Translations under genes and position numbers: made by a program
Assembly: GCA_958430865.1 (NCBI GenBank)
Contig: CAUDNR010004178.1
Span: forward strand, 125,931 to 142,902
Source of the DNA: Entrophospora sp. SA101
Taxonomy: Eukaryota > Glomeromycota > Glomeromycetes > Entrophosporales > Entrophosporaceae
Reading direction: 5' to 3'
DNA: 16,972 bases
In this document: piece after piece, positions 3,524-16,972 of the stretch
Layout: every line of letters begins with the position of its first letter
How positions within the stretch are numbered: position 1 is the first letter of the stretch
Notes under the pieces: generated by a model
Seen by the model: the letters and a program-made list of their open reading frames with translations, nothing else
The model's database searches: none
What the model was told of the DNA's origin: nothing

Positions 3524-5612
3524 TTATTCAGATAATTCATCTGGTATAGTTAATTCAATCTGTTTAGAATCTACAAAATATTTATCACAAAGAGTGGGAT
3601 ATTGTTAATTTTAAAATTTAAATTAATAAAAATAATGATTGAATGTTAATAATTACCATCATTATTACCAATAATTGTTACTTTATTGGAATTCACAGGT
3701 TGGGGAAGGTTTGTAAAATTTAATAATCTACTAGTATAAACTGCATTTGGATGAAATACTGCAGTAATTGTTGAAGGATCAAATTCTATTTCATCCATCT
3801 TATCAAACTCTTTTTCAATTGATTCATCATTATGCCAAAAATTAATAATCTTAGAAATTTCTTCAGCAGTTGGACGCTTATCTGGATTAGCATCCATGCA
3901 TTTGAATGCTAGTTCAATATAGAATTTTGGTGTGTTGTTTGAGAATACAGGTCTTGCACCTTTACATATTTTCATTGCAAGATATTCATCATGTGCCAAA
4001 TTATTAAATGGTTGTTGACCAGTTGATATTACAGACATCAGAACTCCAAAACTGTATATATCTGATGCCATTGTATATGGTTTCTTTTTTAAAACTTCTG
4101 GTGCAATATATGGTAGTACTCCACATATATCATTTTTGTTTGATGATAATGTTTTAGCTGGGCATGATAACCCTAAGTCTGCAATATATGACCACATATC
4201 TTCTTTTTGAAGAATATTACCACTATGGAGATCATGATGAATAATTTCTTTTTCGTGAATATCTCTTAAACCTTTAATAATATAATAAAAGAATTCTAAT
4301 TTTGTTGTTCCATTTTAAATTTTTAAAATCTTTAGTTAAATAATTTTGAAGGCTTCCATCTTCCATATAATCCATTACAAATATATATTCTTTTGTAATT
4401 GGATCTTGTGTTAATCCATAAATATGAATTATATTTCCATTATCACAAAACTTCATATAATTTTGAAACTAAAATAACAAATAAAATATTTAAATAATAA
4501 CAATAATAATCAATAATATTTAAAAAATCTAAAGTAAATAGAAAAATAAAATAATTTACCTCATTAAGAAATTCATCAGAAATATTCTGTGAATTATGTA
4601 GCTTTTTTAATGCCACAGACCTATTATTACTATGTCCTTTTCCGCGAGTTGTATATTTCTCACCATTTAACCAAGTAGCTTTGTATATAGTTGCAAACCC
4701 ACCTTCACCTACCTTTTTAATATTTGTTAAATCATCATAATAAATCCATAAAAGGTAATATTCATTACCATACCCAATTGCTTTAAGTTGTGTGCTTTTA
4801 ATCAATTCATCTAATGTTTCATTACCACTAGTCCATCCTTCAGTTAATAGCTTTGGATCACATGATTGACACCATGCCTTATAAGTATTATATCTATAAC
4901 AAGTTGGGCATTCCCCATAAAATTCATATCTAATATATGGATCTTCATAATCTTGAAGACTTCCATCTTTCATGTAATCCATTACAAAGATATATTCTTT
5001 TGTAACCAAATCTTGTGTTAATCCATAAATTTTATTTATAAATGATTCGCCATAAAATGTAACATAATTTCTGAACTATATAAAAAAATATTGAATTCAG
5101 AATAATAATCAATAATATTTAAAAAATCTGAAAATAAATAGAAAAATAAAATGATTTACCTCATTAAGAAATTCATCAGAAATATTCTGTGAATTATGTA
5201 GCCTTTTTAATGCCACAGACCTATCTCCACTGGTTCTTTCATTATTATATGTACTTTTACAACCATTTAACCAAGTAGCTTTGTATATAGTTGCAAACCC
5301 AACCTCACCTATTTTTTCAATATTTGTTAAATCATCATAAGGAATCCATTGAAGATAATCATCATTCCGATACTTAGTTGCTTTAAGTTGTGTACTTTTA
5401 ATCAATTCATCTAATTTTTTATTGCCACTAGTCCATCCTTCAGTTAATAGCTTTGGATCACATGTTTGACACCATGTCCAATTGGTGTTATATCTATTGC
5501 AGGTTGGACATTTCCCATATCCTTCATTCCTTTTCTTTGAATATTTATCATCATCATTGTTGTCAGTAGAAGTATTGTCATGATGTTTATTTAGATCCAA
5601 AGTGTTTTCCAT
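3524..5612 (-). CDS. TKL-like protein kinase with duplicated zinc ribbon and N-lobe; frameshifted
   Basis: Predicted serine/threonine (TKL-like) kinase of the family expanded in arbuscular-mycorrhizal fungi. Exons: 5160-5612, 4560-5075, 3657-4468 and 3524-3570; introns 84, 91 and 86 nt. Residues 35-51 form a CPTC...CQTC ribbon, then WTSGN, a P-loop at 101-106 (GEVGF, third Gly replaced) and VALK Lys136. After the hinge region (DYMKDGSLQDY) the chain re-enters, in frame, a second ribbon (Cys207-Cys223), P-loop GEGGF (274-278), VALK Lys308 and the C-lobe: IIHHDLHSGNIL (HRD is HHD), ADLGLS for DFG, PYIAPEVL for APE, DIYSFGVLM. The C-terminus, HPNAVYTSRLL then DDSKQIELTIPDELSE, is family-typical. 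The frame breaks near 4285-4292, in an A-run, so a stop at 4274-4276 would end the protein before the catalytic loop. Either the gene is a recent pseudogene or the base call is wrong. ATG 5612 has a good context (AAAAATGG). Confidence 0.85.
4346..5520 (-). repeat. Internal tandem duplication in the kinase gene (period about 600 bp)
   Basis: Two direct copies, about 4943-5520 and 4346-4924, correspond at an offset of exactly 600 bp through the exon (for example 5161 and 4561, 5281 and 4681, 5461 and 4861). The offset becomes 607 bp beyond the intron, because the introns are 84 and 91 nt. Each copy holds a zinc ribbon, the linker, the kinase N-lobe, the intron and the start of the hinge. The copies are clearly similar but differ at many codons, and the first has lost one P-loop glycine. 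Confidence 0.85.
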
Positions 5613-5635
5613 TTTTAAAAATTATTTGTAGTGTA

Positions 5636-6544: not shown

Positions 6545-8042
6545 TTATTTCTTATCAATTATTTGAAAAACTTCTAATTCATCATATCTACTACCACCTA
6601 CTATATCGATGTTATTATAAGCAAATGGAGTAGTAGAAATACTACCATCTATGCGAAATAGAATATCACCACCACCACAGCCAAAAATAGGTAAATAAGT
6701 AGGACTACAACAAATTGCATACCGATAATAATAATTATTTTTAACATAGCTAAATTGTGCAGTATTGATATTATCTCTATTGCTTATATTGAATATAAAA
6801 CTTTCGGTTGTTTTTTTATGACCATTTCCATTCCAATTGAGTGGATTATAACCACCGATTATTTGATTTGAATTTTGTATTTTACCAACTACAAGAGTTT
6901 TGTTGATATTGTCACATTTTTGATGAAATGTATTTGCATTCAAACCATTCCTACTACTACCATATAAAAGTTTCAATTCATATTTTACTTCTTTGTATGA
7001 ATTATATGGTGGGTTTTTTTTATCTATCCAACTTGCAAAAAGCAAAGTAAGCTTTTCATCAATTATCATTGATTCAAGCTTTGGAATAAGTTTTATGTTT
7101 CTTGATGCCAATAAATTTAATGCATGTTGTCTACCAGGAAATAAATGATATTGTAATAGGCTGTTCCAGAAAAACTCTGTAAAAAGTTTCTGGTAGGGTA
7201 CAATTTTATTAAAAAAATCATCTTTAGAAATATCCTGAAATCTTATTAAAGAAATAAATTCCTTTATTGTGTTGCCTATATCAACAAAATTTTGTGGTGA
7301 CCAACTTTTCAGGTCATTATTATTGGTTTCTGGATGTCTTGATAATCCCCATTTAAGAACATTTTCCCAAATAACTATTTCGTCAACAGAAAAGTCCTCT
7401 TTTTTGAGAATTTCTAATAGAATTGGTTTTTCTAATGACTCAAATTCACTTGACTGAAATAATTTTTCACTATATTTACTAAATTCTTTTAGACAGTTAT
7501 TTTTCAATTCCTTAAATTTTTCATTTGAATAAATCATTTGTAGAATTTTGACTGGATTTTCTTTTATATAATCTTCGTGTTTTTTAATAAAACAATTCAT
7601 TGTATATTCATAAAGTGATTCAAGACCAAGTTCATCAGCTGCGATTAATATTTCTAATATATCAACTCCAGTAAAATTGTCTAATTCAATCTTACATGTA
7701 TATAAAAATCTTTTAAAAATAAATAATAATTATCATATATTCAATAATGAATTAATAAATAAATTAATATAATAGTAGTTTAATATAAACTTACTTTAGA
7801 ATATTCTTGAAAAGTTGCTCATTAATACTGGCCTTTTTAACAATATAATAGCCATTTTCTTTTGTTGCATTACTTAATGCAATGTTAAAAAATGGACAAT
7901 GAGTACATATGACAGATGCATGTGCATGAATTTCCTTTATGTTTGGTTCTACACCTACATATATTTTTACATCATAAAAATCTTCTGTATTTAATAATCT
8001 TTCATTTTCATTAAAATATTTTTCTAATATTGTTGACTCCAT
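6545..8042 (-). CDS. BTB-BACK-TLDc domain protein
   Basis: Two exons (7795-8042 and 6545-7709) are joined by an 85-nt intron with a GTAAGT donor and a TTTAAAAG acceptor, giving 470 residues with an intact frame. Residues about 20-115 are a BTB/POZ fold: DFYDVKIYVG, then HAHASVICTHCPFFNIAL, then FKNILKFLYTCKIEL across the splice, and LEILIAADELGLESL. Residues about 134-225 form a BACK helical region (NPVKILQMIYSNEKFKEL...VIWENVLKWGL). Residues about 295-470 are a TLDc domain with its hallmarks: SMIIDEKLTLLFASWID, LLYGSSRNG, FHQKCD, IIGGYNPLNW, ESFIF, and ELEVFQI at the end. In this family BTB/BACK normally recruits Cullin-3 and the C-terminal domain (TLDc here) supplies specificity; substrates are unknown. 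ATG 8042 is chosen because the open frame further upstream has only TTG codons, and the context (AAAATGG) is good. Confidence 0.93.
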
Positions 8043-8069
8043 TTTTTTTGTTTTCAAAAAGAAAAAAAT

Positions 8070-8081
8070 TAATTTGTCAAA
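8070..8081 (-). promoter_or_regulatory. Shared upstream motif TTTGACAAATTA (BTB-TLDc gene)
   Basis: This is the same 12-mer as upstream of the kinase gene, here 28-39 nt before ATG 8042. It is the only long word I could find shared by the two upstream regions apart from A/T runs. Confidence 0.35.
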
Positions 8082-8089
8082 CAACAATT

Positions 8090-8474
8090 TAAATGAATTA
8101 CCTGCATATTAATATGTGGGGTGATTTCCGGCAGAGAAAATGACTCCCGAAATTTTGTTACACGGAAATTTGCAACGTGAGGCAAAAATTATTAAAAATA
8201 AATTTTTGGTGAAATGGCCGAATTTTTCATTTTGGCATTCCAGCTATTTAATTTTATTCAGTAAAACTTTTATAAATAGTGCAAAATTTTTTGTAAAATT
8301 TCAAAAAAAAAAAAAAATATCTAATACAAAACACCAGAAATAAAAATCTAAATCTTATTTATCAAAAAAATATAATTAAACCGTCTTTAAATTTTGAATC
8401 AATTCATAATGATGATGTCAGAAATTTAGAAGATCACCCAAATACTATGTATATAATTATCTGAAGATTTAATT
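8090..8474. other. Upstream region of the BTB-TLDc gene
   Basis: A 12-bp palindrome, CATATTAATATG, lies near 8105-8116. The open frame 8140-8343 (plus) is low-complexity and ends in a lysine run from poly-A. It has no recognisable domain and I do not call it a gene. Confidence 0.4.
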
Positions 8475-9247
8475 TTATTATAGGTGGGTTTGATCAAAGT
8501 AAGTCTTAAAGTCGAGATCTACGAAGCTGTTTGTAAAATATATTTAATTAACGTTTTACTATTATCAATTATTCAATAACTATATAGGCGGGTTTGATCG
8601 GTCAAGATCTATATAATTAGATTGTTAATAGTTAATAATGGAATTTTATTACATGCAAAAAAAAAAATTTTTTGGGTTGTAAATTTTGTTTTATTAAATA
8701 AATTTGTTTGATTTTTTCATTCATCGTTCATGTTTCCTCTTGATCGTATATCTTAAATTGGTCGCGTTTACAATCATTTTGACATTCGTTATATTAAGGT
8801 TATTTTGATTATATTGAGAGATATGGTCAAGAGAAGAGTTAGGAAGAGAGTTATTCTTCAACAAAGTCGAAAACCAACCCTTTAAATACATTTTCGAGCA
8901 ATACGGTTTAATTATTAGACTATTTCAAATGGTTGCTTCCAACTTCTTAAATTCGAACCATTTGTTAATGAAACAATGTAGAAGGTTGAGTTCCGTGCGC
9001 TGAAATGGCCCGAGAGGAATTTCTCTACGAAAAAATAACAAAAATAATTTTTTTGGACGGCTGTCCTATTTATATGTTTCGAATTTAATAAAATAGACTA
9101 TTGTCTTGGCCAAAGTGATGTCATTTTTTTGCTCTTTACGACAAAGAAGACAACTTAATTGAATTTTTATTCTCGCGTAGCATGGTATGTGTGTTTTGTA
9201 ACACGAAAAGCAAAAGCTCACATTGCGTTCTCAGTTATAAGCTTGTT
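8475..9247 (+). repeat. Long dispersed repeat, copy A
   Basis: This segment matches 14210-15138 in the same orientation from TATTATAGGYGGGTTTGATC through CAGTTRTAA-CTTGTT, with scattered substitutions and small indels. It begins with two short sub-units containing GGYGGGTTTGATC and a GTCRAGATCTA box. It continues with a T-rich core and ends with a region holding CGTGCGCTGAAATGGCC and AATAAAATAGAC. Copy A lacks a 162-bp block present in copy B and has a 10-12-bp extra stretch near 8835. No open frame is conserved between copies, so the repeat is non-coding. It may be the terminal repeat of a retroelement or an independent dispersed element. Clear TG...CA ends were not found. Confidence 0.75.
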
Positions 9248-14209: not shown

Positions 14210-15138
14210 TTATTATAGGCGGGTTTGATCAAAGTAAGTCTTAAAGTCGAGATCTACGAAGCTGTTTGTAAAATATATTTAATTAACGTTTTATTATTAT
14301 CAATTATTCAATAACTATATAGGCGGGTTTGATCGGTCAAGATCTATATAATTAGATTGTTAATAGTTAATAATGGAATTTTATTACATGCAAAAAAAAT
14401 TTTTTTGAGTTGTAAATTTTGTTTTATTAAATAAATTTGTTTGATTTTCTCATACATTGTTCATGTTTCCTCTTGATCATATATCTTAAATTGGCCGCGT
14501 TTACAATCATTTTGACATTCGTTATATTAAGGTTATTTTGATTATATTGAGAGATATGGTCAAGTGAAGAGAGTTATTCTTCAACCAAGTCGAAAACCAA
14601 CCCTTTAAATACATTTTTGAGTAATACGGTTTAATTTATTAGACTATTTCAAATGATTGCTTCCAACTTCTTAAATTTGAACCATTTGTTAATGAAACAA
14701 TTGTTCGTGAAGTGATTGTTGACAAAATGAATCAAACCCACATTATTTTTAAATTCACAATTTTAATTGGTCAATTGCGTGGGTTAAAATTTTGTGTTAC
14801 CAGAACGGTCTCCTGTAATAATGTTGTAAATAATAACGAACAATTATTTCATATGGCCGAATGTAGAAGGTTGAGTTCCGTGCGCTGAAATGGCCTGAGA
14901 GGAATTTCTCTACGAAAAAATAACAAAAAAAAAGTTTGGACGGCTGTCCTATTTATATGTTTCGAATTTAATAAAATAGACTATTGTCTTGGCCCGAGTG
15001 ATGTCATTTTTTTGCTCTTTGCGACAAAGAAGACGCAAAACCCAACCTGATTGAATTTTTATTCTCGCGTAGCACGGTATACGTGTTTTGTAACACGAAA
15101 AGCAAAGCTCACATTGCGTTCCCAGTTGTAACCTTGTT
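14210..15138 (+). repeat. Long dispersed repeat, copy B
   Basis: Same-orientation copy of 8475-9247. It is longer by a 162-bp block after 14700 and by a small insertion near 15034 (GCAAAACCCAACC). Shared landmarks include GTCAAGATCTATATAATTAG, GACATTCGTTATATTAAGGT, GGTTGAGTTCCGTGCGCTGA and TTTTGTAACACGAAAAGC. Both copies break up every frame that could be read through them, which supports a non-coding repeat. Confidence 0.75.
14701..14862. mobile_element. 162-bp block present only in copy B
   Basis: Copy A reads straight through GAAACAATGTAGAAGG, whereas copy B has 162 bp at that point. A 10-bp inverted repeat, AATTGTTCGT at 14699-14708 and ACGAACAATT at 14836-14845, brackets most of it. An inner dyad, AACCCAC (about 14737) with GTGGGTT (about 14779), lies within. 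The word TGACAAAATGAATCAAACCCA near the left end is a diverged copy of the terminus at 1520-1542. A small non-autonomous insertion is likely. Loss from copy A through the AAT microhomology is the alternative. Confidence 0.5.
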
Positions 15139-15299: not shown

Positions 15300-15392
15300 A
15301 TGAATGAAGGTATTTTTTCTTATAACTTTTTTAAAAATATAATAGTAGGACTTTGCATCTTAACATTTCTCTTTATAATAATGTTTAGCTAA
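15300..15392 (+). CDS. Short ORF, 30 residues, single hydrophobic segment
   Basis: ATG 15300 to TAA 15390-15392 encodes a 30-residue peptide. After MNEGIFSYNFFKN it has an uninterrupted hydrophobic stretch, IIVGLCILTFLFIIMF, long enough for one membrane helix. It starts 5 nt after the preceding short ORF, in another frame, and ends 11 nt before the degenerate first unit of the satellite. AT-rich DNA often gives F/I/L-rich frames, so it may be chance. Confidence 0.2.
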   Translation: MNEGIFSYNFFKNIIVGLCILTFLFIIMFS

Positions 15393-15403
15393 ATTCTATT
15401 ATG

Positions 15404-16972
15404 GTAAATATTATAAAATTAACTTAAATAATTTTTATTAAAACATCTAATTAAATAATTTTATTTTTATTTCTTTATAATAACCAGGGGGTAAGTATTG
15501 TATTATAAATTCAACTTTTACAACACAAAATAAAACATCATCTAATTAAATAATTTTATTTTTTATTTCTTTATAATAACCAGATGGTAAGTATTGTATT
15601 ATAAATTCAACTTTAGAACACAAAATAAAACAACATCTAATTAAATAATTTTATTTTTTATTTCTTTATAATAACCAGTTGGTAAGTATTGTATTATAAA
15701 TCAACTTTTACAACACAAAATAAAACATCATCTAATTAAATAATTTTATTTTTTATTTCTTTATATAACCAGATGGTAAGTATTGTATTATAAATTCAAC
15801 TTTACTAAACAAAATAAAACATCATCTAATTAAATAATTTTATTTTTTATTTCTTTATAATTAACCAGGGAGTAAGTATTGTATTATAAATTCATCTTTT
15901 ACAACACAAAATAAAACATCATCTAATTAAATAATTTTATTTTTTATTCTTTATAATAACCAGATGGTAAGTATGTATTATAAATTCAACTTTTACAACA
16001 CAAAATAAAACATCATCTAGTTAAATAAATTTATTTTTCATTTCTTTATAATAACCAGTGGGTAAGTATTGTATTATAAATCAACTTTTACAACACAAAA
16101 TAAAACATCATCTAATTAATAAATTTATTTTTTATTTCTTTATAATTAACCAGGAAGTAAGTATTGTATTATAAATTCATCTTTTACAACAACACAAAAT
16201 AAAACATCATCTAATTAAATAATTTTATTTTTTATTCTTTATAATAACCAGATGGTAAGTATTGTATTATAAATTCAACTTTTACAACACAAAATAAAAA
16301 CATCATCTAATTAAATAAATTTATTTTTTATTTCTTTATAATAACCAGATGGTAAGTATTGTATTATAAATTCAACTTTACTAAACAAAATAAAACATCA
16401 TCCAATTAAATAATTTTATTTTTTATTACTTTATAATAACCAGCTAGTAAGTATTGTATTATAAATTCAACTTTTACAACAACACAAAATAAAACATCAT
16501 CTAATTAAATAATTTTCTTTTTATTTCTTTATAATAACCAGATGGTAAGTATTGGATTATAGTTCAACTTTTACAACACAAAATAAAACATCATCTAATT
16601 AAATAATTTTATTTTTTATTTCTTTACAATAACCAGAGTGTAGGTATCATATTATAAACTTTTACAACACAAAATAAAACATCATCTAATTAAATAAATT
16701 TATTTTTTATTTCTTTATAATAACAAGATTGTAAGTATTGTATTATAAATTCAACTTTTACAACACAAAATAAAACATCATCTAATTAAATAAATTTATT
16801 TTTTATTTCTTTATAATAATCAGATTGTAAGTATTATATTATAAATCAACTTTTACAACACAAAATAAAAACATCATCTAATTAAATAAATTTATTTTTC
16901 ATTTCTTTATAATAACCAGGGGGTAAGTATTGTATTATAAATCAACTTTTACAACACAAAATAAAACATCAT
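15404..16972 (+). repeat. Tandem satellite of about 95-bp intron-like units separated by variable triplets
   Basis: A head-to-tail array with period 91-98 bp runs to the right edge of the window and probably beyond. There are 16 complete junctions plus a degenerate first unit (ATG at 15401-15403, then GTAAAT). Each unit begins GTAAGTATTGTATTATAAAT, contains a fungal branch-like CTAAT (in CATCATCTAATT), then TTTATTTCTTTATAATAACCAG. After CAG come exactly three nucleotides, then the next GTAAGT. The triplets, with first positions, are GGG 15488, ATG 15584, TTG 15679, ATG 15773, GGA 15869, ATG 15964, TGG 16059, GAA 16154, ATG 16252, ATG 16349, CTA 16444, ATG 16542, AGT 16637, ATT 16728, ATT 16824 and GGG 16920. 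Exceptions to the signals: GTAGGT at 16640 and AAG at 16725-16727. Intron-like lengths are 88-95 nt, like the real introns of this window. Confidence 0.9.

Follow-up and report, generated by a model that had tools for sequence, protein, structure and literature searches.

The locus considered here raises a simple question: is the tandem repeat at its 3' end a satellite or part of a gene? The window, by which we mean the whole stretch of 16,972 nucleotides (nt) analysed, comes from the fungus Entrophospora sp. SA101 (assembly GCA_958430865.1, contig CAUDNR010004178.1, positions 125,931 to 142,902), and a 95-bp tandem repeat occupies its final 1.57 kb (15444-16972; Tandem Repeats Finder, period 95, 16.0 copies, 90% matches). 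A first-pass annotation of the sequence had described intron-like units that meet at 16 junctions, with exactly three nucleotides between each acceptor and the next donor, at least nine values of that triplet, one AAG acceptor and one GTAGGT donor. We confirm each of these points. Between 15404 and 16972, every junction (16/16) has the form AG-NNN-GT with a GTAAGT-like donor, the triplets (given in order in the table below) take nine distinct values, and the exceptional acceptor and donor lie at 16728 and 16637. The annotation favoured the inference that such an array is a run of introns flanking single-codon micro-exons. Gene context, splice-site constraint, a symmetric reading phase and avoidance of stop codons between consecutive triplets support this inference, and these features, like the overall architecture and the recombinant arrays described below, can be read from the DNA. 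We consider it very probable that the array is the 5' part of a protein kinase gene, with 3-nt exons lying between near-identical introns.

The same unit is found at other loci. The pattern AACCAG-NNN-GTAAGTAT has 324 exact matches in the 101-Mb genome (85 + 79 + 160 when split by first triplet base), compared to 1 for the reversed pattern. A junction profile (a hidden Markov model trained on 181 distinct seeds) detected 574 well-covered junctions across 45 loci, each locus in a single orientation. Overlapping loci and four duplicated arrays contribute to this number; with the duplicates dropped (the arrays on C982, C1846 and C1833 and one of two on C1151), 38 arrays remain and hold 452 junctions in all, the 38 including both the C55 and the C905 copy of an identical solo junction. 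The 38 are part of the genome's total, further contigs having junction matches as well. Many arrays stop at contig ends or N gaps, and hence unit numbers are lower bounds.

Aligned to the profile, 572 of the 574 junctions have a spacer of 3 nt, and both exceptions belong to a decayed array on C679 (2/452 among the non-duplicate junctions). Nor is diversity equal at all positions: it is 0.72, 0.60 and 0.70 at the three triplet sites, 0.003 and 0.000 at the AG, and 0.02–0.11 across GTAAGT. The first-pass annotation had also described roughly 92 nt of nearly invariant flanking sequence, and this does not hold genome-wide. Acceptors vary between units (AACCAG, TTTCATAG, TTTCTTAG, TAACTAG), and intron lengths range from 69 to 125 nt (390 introns, selected at 60–125 nt) and are spread evenly modulo 3 (134/129/127), with the spacer still 3 nt. 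Alignment gaps are frequent beside the junction, affecting 115–134 of the 574 rows at positions −3 to −12, compared to a single gap in the triplet and none at the AG or at donor bases 1–4. Since gaps are abundant nearby and virtually absent from these sites, the constraint acts on AG, three bases and GT rather than on the whole repeat.

A second count used only intron interiors as anchors, which avoids selection for junctions; loci L046, L042, L062 and L061 and interior pairs too far apart were omitted. An intact AG-NNN-G[TC] with a full donor was found in 397 of 414 junctions. The 17 exceptions comprise five AG-NNN-GT with a weaker donor, five junctions in C679, and otherwise AT donors, one TG acceptor and lost junctions. 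These data argue against a ladder of recursive (ratchet) splice sites, an alternative that the annotation had raised, because such sites need AG directly before GT and just one of the 17 exceptions, in C679, has that form.

The introns have the ends of U2-type introns (GT/GC-AG with a GTRAGT-like donor). The acceptor AG is present in 573 of 574 junctions, and the donor is GT in 548, GC in 20 and AT in 6 (G[TC] in 568/574). T to C (20 cases) is the sole change seen at donor base 2, and GC-AG introns are a known minor class, which matches this change. Upstream of the acceptor lie the branch motif and T-rich stretch expected of U2-type introns: 302 of 385 introns contain CTRAY (119 on average and at most 134 after shuffling), at a median of 38 nt from the acceptor, and T content is 63% at 5–30 nt before the acceptor versus 43% overall. 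Triplet composition is skewed as well, by counts that ignore shared ancestry. Triplets starting with GT, which would put a second donor directly after the acceptor, number 3 versus 50.9 expected, and those ending in AG number 7 versus 20.3. Triplets starting with CG are absent (0 versus 31.9), for which splicing offers no reason, and those starting with GG are in excess (81 versus 37.8). By eye, we also noticed an inverted TATTATAAA in the repeat unit, a possible hairpin around the triplet.

What surrounds the arrays points to a gene. Many contigs share a common layout: AAAATGAATGAAG/GTATTTTTTC, the first intron, ...TTTAG/CTAAATTCTATAAAG/GTAAAT, the array, a last intron and a kinase exon coding for, e.g., DNTKGFKERKEEYGTCSVCARYNTNYQWCQSCDPKLLAQSWTS (slashes mark predicted splice sites). 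A scan of the genome for exon 1 and its donor, allowing ≤3 mismatches, gave 66 matches, compared to 5 for the reversed control. A search for exon 2 that tried 9, 12, 15 and 18 nt and favoured 15 located a 15-nt exon in 19 of the 38 arrays and returned no other length. The kinase exon was located for 19 arrays, and all 19 are in phase 1, the first AG in the open frame leaving two bases of a split codon; later in-frame AGs fall in other phases. None of the 19 has an in-frame Met before the conserved motif, so a start codon must lie further 5', and exon 1 offers one in the right frame. On C936, the open reading frame (ORF) downstream of the array is a protein kinase (PF00069, 3.6e-34). In total, exon 1 or the kinase exon of a single subfamily accompanies 29 of the 38 arrays, and the longest run in a gene with a kinase exon reaches 30 predicted single-codon exons (C166). 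These flanking exons are at odds with the idea of a free-standing satellite and suggest that the array belongs to the 5' part of a kinase gene. The window array begins at donor 15404, the first base 3' of exon 2, and holds 16 junctions; the remainder of the array and the kinase body lie past the contig end, and a kinase exon for the window gene is predicted from its paralogues.

A six-frame search with a composite protein, in which 150 of 1220 candidates were scored, splits the family. The best 50 places (76–95% identity) match only from residue 31 or later, and 32 of them contain one or two TAA. Of the other 100, one is a C1871 fragment (83%) and the remaining 99 are more distant (48–64%), often unbroken from residues 3–30. 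Five of these distant, ordinary paralogues were read, and each has its tail in one open exon, e.g. MENTLGENKHHDDNSTDKNNEYSKERKEDYGEC and MEETLNEEDRYHDNSIETNDDIYSNKRDEKYGEC. Given this, the array would replace a tail that ordinary paralogues carry in a single exon. Five of the 50 best places are on C1871; one of them was read and has no array in the 1.8 kb upstream.

If all junctions are in phase 1, each micro-exon ends one codon and opens another, and a phase-1 codon combines the last base of a triplet with the first two of its successor. We counted stop codons of this kind in the 29 anchored arrays (exon 1 or a kinase exon found), as far as they have two or more units, omitting junctions with non-GT/GC donors. 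Phase-1 stops occur in 2 of 325 consecutive pairs, compared to 15.3 expected when triplets are shuffled within arrays; the shuffles never fell below 6 in 10,000, and the minimum was 4 in another 5,000. Similar deficits were seen for unique pairs (2/196 versus 13.0), with the shared 3' tail removed (2/256 versus 13.7) and for all arrays, anchored or not (7/406 versus 22.2). One caveat here is that related arrays are not independent, and the unique-pair and tail-removed counts correct for kinship only partly. A strict test dropped gaps >130 nt, doubtful junctions and, from arrays with a CAT CTG end, the final six units. Among 161 pairs from the 19 kinase-exon arrays, AA, AG or GA came after 0 of 36 triplets ending in T and after 36 of 125 triplets with another ending (Fisher 5e-5, or 1.3e-4 on unique pairs); with 5'-only arrays included, the counts are 1/54 versus 54/185.

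The other two phases were rejected. Phase-2 stops on the same data occur at the shuffled rate (40 versus 43.5 expected). In phase 0, TGA and TAA triplets do exist genome-wide (7/444), and that phase is a misfit with the 10-nt exon 1. It follows that the peptide GMLMGMWEMMLMSIIG, which the annotation had read from the window in phase 0, is not the predicted product; in phase 1, the window array reads GDVDGNVGNDANEYYW. Predicted tails from other arrays look protein-like, e.g. MNEAKFYKGTAAKRDMDGIEADAWRD (C829) and EVDEFSVKYPAVNDGIEYSDEAFTVGTSD (C2120).

The stop deficit is strongest for neighbours. At lag 1, 2 stops are seen versus 15.4 expected, and the corresponding numbers are 9 versus 14.3 at lag 2 (P 0.046), 14 versus 13.4 at lag 3, 11 versus 12.2 at lag 4, 7 versus 11.4 at lag 5 (P 0.068) and 9 versus 10.4 at lag 6. 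This pattern bears on two other ways in which the same DNA could be spliced. The array might be skipped as one long intron, with exon 2 (or exon 1) joined to the kinase exon and the repeat left as a satellite with old splice sites. Exon 1, exon 2 and the kinase exon are all in phase 1, so skipping would preserve the frame. However, stops are avoided at lag 1 and not at lag 3, and AG, GT and the 3-nt spacing are kept while acceptors and intron lengths drift, making a single long intron very improbable in our view. Alternatively, each mRNA might retain an arbitrary subset of micro-exons, yielding combinatorial tails that are always in frame because every micro-exon is phase-1 symmetric. The slight deficit at lag 2, and perhaps that at lag 5, is what such skipping would leave, whereas the lack of avoidance at lags 3, 4 and 6 implies that heavy skipping has not been a long-term constraint. 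We regard random skipping as unlikely overall, and possible in part.

Certain triplets are fixed by position. In arrays selected for their CAT CTG end, the preceding triplets recur across genes (GGA in 10/13, CTG in 8/11, CTG in 9/12 and ATT in 7/9), and in one subgroup these 3' triplets and the kinase exon together code for SAGTSD. This brings us back to a plain, unspliced satellite with one tolerant or hypermutable site. The repeats are tandem, AT-rich and present at many loci, their triplets can differ between units with identical flanks, and about a third of the arrays (12/38) have readable downstream bases without a kinase exon, all of which a satellite would accommodate. But a tolerant site would neither avoid phase-1 stops between neighbours nor maintain position-specific triplets or the flanking AG and GT, and a satellite would have no cause to sit beside exons of one subfamily with one orientation per locus. 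The arrays thus bear the coding and splicing constraint that a non-coding satellite would lack, and we find this explanation scarcely credible.

Returning to single-codon exons, each ~95-bp repeat would comprise one ordinary spliceosomal intron and one 3-nt exon. The spliceosome would remove every intron, and the mRNA would join exon 1, exon 2, n micro-exons and the first large kinase exon. For the window, the predicted mRNA is ATGAATGAAG-CTAAATTCTATTATG-GGGATGTTGATGGGA..., and the predicted protein starts MNEAKFYYGDVDGNVGNDANEYYW, followed by a codon beginning with G. Gain or loss of a repeat would change the tail by one residue and never shift the frame, a claim of the first-pass annotation that the phase-1 symmetry and the constant spacer support. 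Growth and contraction of the intron repeats, and their recombination between paralogues, would leave every gene with a hypervariable N-terminal tail of its own, followed by a conserved final stretch (SAGTSD in the one subgroup) and the kinase. Transcription and splicing of the array in this manner, translation of the peptide and a use for its variability are our inferences.

How do the arrays evolve? At ranks 7 to 9 from the array end, triplets of equal rank agree at only 0.29–0.43 of sites, while the introns there are 77–82% identical. Among units with ≤1 of 80 flank bases different, triplet sites differ at 0.33–0.63 between arrays (48 pairs) and at 0.17–0.40 within arrays (12 pairs), compared to 0.67 for random triplets. 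The triplets are nearly independent of the introns that flank them, and duplication with point mutation alone would hardly fit the divergence of triplets and introns. Two gene pairs point to exchange. From exon 1 through exon 2 to the fourth micro-exon, C513 and C1255 do not differ, and they split at the next micro-exon (ATG versus CTT); C562 and C1351 differ in their 5' part by unit number and one triplet (GGA versus GGC), after which several units are identical. Arrays thus recombine between genes. Our provisional reading is concerted evolution of the introns together with selection for, or protection of, diverse codons, the alternative being a process that copies introns without their exons. 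Near-identical introns could act as handles, so that unequal exchange would insert, delete and reshuffle codons without shifting the frame. Tentatively, and at somewhat less than even chances, we suggest a codon-cassette diversity system, in which introns serve as homology handles and single codons are reshuffled among dozens of kinase genes while something keeps the codons diverse. If true, the tail would be private to each gene copy and would evolve one amino acid at a time.

The near independence of triplet and intron is also what a concatemer of a mobile intron (an introner or circular element) might produce, its spacers deriving from target duplications or circle junctions. In such a case the triplet need not travel with the intron, as seems true between arrays, where units with 1 of 80 flank bases different disagree at 0.63 of triplet sites (random 0.67). 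Identical neighbouring triplets are in weak excess (39/358 pairs versus a shuffle mean of 28.1, P 0.012, with C262 left out; 49/403 versus 34.6 with it), whereas target duplication predicts mostly identical neighbours. In its pure form, a concatemer leaves phase, stop avoidance and the fixed place in one gene family unaccounted for, and independent insertion in many unrelated genes, the hallmark of introners, is not the pattern seen, with 29 of the 38 arrays in one subfamily. We think it improbable as a full explanation, although it could still be the origin of the array.

Several atypical loci were encountered. The array on C679 (L083) has spacers of 0, 2, 3 and 9 nt, and neither exon 1 nor the kinase exon was found in the bases read; it is a natural control for loss of constraint. 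C262 (L064, L065, L091) holds a 46-unit array of mostly AGA and TGT triplets with its junctions kept. It contains four phase-1 stops, exon 1 and the kinase exon were not found in the bases read, and it is perhaps dead or read differently. At three places (L015 and L016 on C55, L085 on C905), the same solo repeat-like junction lies in an identical other context. On C244 (L079) and C247 (L080), exon 1, exon 2 and one micro-exon are fused to a common coding-like fragment, helicase-like by eye, which looks like capture by a mobile element. A 217-nt unit on C69 (L017) has an insert with an inverted repeat (by eye) inside the repeat intron, resembling a miniature inverted-repeat transposable element. 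On C1151 (L095) and C313 (L096), copies of exon 1 and its upstream stretch continue into sequence without an array; these are truncated or rewired gene starts.

A number of observations weigh against single-codon exons in a kinase gene. The evidence is DNA sequence, from which splicing and exons are predicted. For half of the arrays (19/38), no kinase exon was located. Seven of these run into a locus end, a contig end or N; in the other 12 the exon is absent from 521–1508 readable bases; some of the 12 look fragmentary, and C2086, C1337 and C939 stay without explanation. Misassembly may affect arrays that stop at a contig end or gap. A protein database search with 18 candidates gave 1 match (Gigaspora rosea, 46%) and no gene model of the subfamily, and matches to a spliced retrocopy of exon 1 and exon 2 were not above control (14 versus 11). 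Anchored phase-1 stops occur in C973, between adjacent units and with no kinase exon in the 872 nt read, and in C914, across a 159-nt gap; unanchored ones number four in C262 and one in C1779. The slight deficit at lag 2 noted above belongs here too, and phase-0 stops are also few (7/444 versus 16.2, against the cruder control of independent columns). AT donors occur, and the middle base of the triplet is T or G in 507 of 573, which is odd for an AT-rich genome. Finally, triplet dinucleotides are far from independent, and hence the GT deficit may partly reflect few founders.

Related gene structures are known, and the comparisons here draw on portions of the cited papers. Schistosoma micro-exon genes (MEGs) contain runs of 10–20 very short exons, mostly multiples of three, given as 3–81 bp in the abstract and as 6 bp at minimum and mostly 15 bp in the text (PMC10526429). 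By comparison, the micro-exons of the arrays are nearly all 3 nt and would encode a fungal kinase tail, and their introns are ~90-nt homologous tandem repeats, whereas MEG introns reach 5 kb. Aphid bicycle genes, putative plant-gall effectors, have many small internal exons, nearly all in one phase, and a fast-evolving protein (PMC9168663); the portion consulted mentions neither one-codon exons nor tandem-repeat introns. Consecutive internal exons shorter than about 50 nt, in multiples of three and in the same phase, are a feature that the arrays, as predicted from DNA, share with both systems. The likeness is structural only, and no homology is claimed. The WD40 repeats of HET-D/E, fungal recognition genes of Podospora, likewise stay similar to each other apart from a few variable codons, and are shuffled; they are coding throughout, while in the arrays all but one codon is intron.

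Exons of 1–3 nt can be spliced, as indicated by a 3-bp exon of Drosophila homothorax and a 1-nt exon in Arabidopsis (PMC7392893, PMC4674806), although these are single and the arrays are long consecutive runs. In Trichoderma, Xlr2 has a micro-exon, functional ones reportedly being undescribed before in filamentous fungi (PMC11121469); it is one regulated micro-exon, unlike the runs seen here. Introners and introner-like elements are many similar spliceosomal introns spread by copying (PMC9860276, PMC4457414), whereas the array introns are tandem, 3 nt apart and mostly in one subfamily. Among the open-access matches listed (subscription journals and bioRxiv lay outside the scope), there was no description of a tandem repeat of an intron plus one codon, nor any of micro-exons in arbuscular mycorrhizal fungi, and such arrays are not mentioned in the portion consulted of a long-read annotation paper on Rhizophagus irregularis. 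The kinase repertoire of the latter is strongly expanded, with 2,533 members (PMC10234402). If the arrays are spliced as predicted, a tandem repeat would be a frame-safe device for protein diversity within an expanded kinase repertoire, and up to 30 serial one-codon exons would probe the shortest exon that the spliceosome handles in series. With each donor 3 nt from the previous acceptor, neighbouring introns could hardly be engaged together and would probably be removed in order. Gene finders are likely to miss such exons, and hence dozens of kinase starts may be misannotated.

Table. Predicted parts of the array gene in the window, read from window DNA.
Feature	Position	Strand	Remarks
Exon 1	15300..15309	+	ATGAATGAAG (M-N-E-G, codon split at end), 10 nt, ends in phase 1
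Intron 1	15310..15388	+	GTATTTTTTC...TTTAG; at the same place in paralogues
Exon 2	15389..15403	+	CTAAATTCTATTATG, 15 nt, phase 1 to phase 1 (A-K-F-Y-Y)
Intron 2	15404..15487	+	First repeat-like intron; array starts at its donor
Micro-exon 1 GGG	15488..15490	+	
Micro-exon 2 ATG	15584..15586	+	
Micro-exon 3 TTG	15679..15681	+	
Micro-exon 4 ATG	15773..15775	+	
Micro-exon 5 GGA	15869..15871	+	
Micro-exon 6 ATG	15964..15966	+	
Micro-exon 7 TGG	16059..16061	+	
Micro-exon 8 GAA	16154..16156	+	
Micro-exon 9 ATG	16252..16254	+	
Micro-exon 10 ATG	16349..16351	+	
Micro-exon 11 CTA	16444..16446	+	
Micro-exon 12 ATG	16542..16544	+	
Micro-exon 13 AGT	16637..16639	+	Donor GTAGGT
Micro-exon 14 ATT	16728..16730	+	Acceptor AAG
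Micro-exon 15 ATT	16824..16826	+	
Micro-exon 16 GGG	16920..16922	+	
Next repeat intron, 5' part	16923..16972	+	Cut by the contig end, which is also the window end

Elsewhere in the window, a long direct repeat links 8475-9151 and 14210-15034, with pieces 90–97% identical at a spacing of about 5.7–5.9 kb. The second copy lies just 5' of exon 1, and our guess is that it carries the promoter of the array gene. On the minus strand, an ordinary kinase paralogue (3646-5621) has a cysteine-motif N-terminal exon twice (4443-5075 and 5109-5621), followed by one kinase C-lobe, and two ORFs at 6545-8108 form a probable BTB-BACK-TLDc gene (PF00651, PF07707, PF07534). A 48-bp minisatellite of 4.5 copies lies at 691-907.
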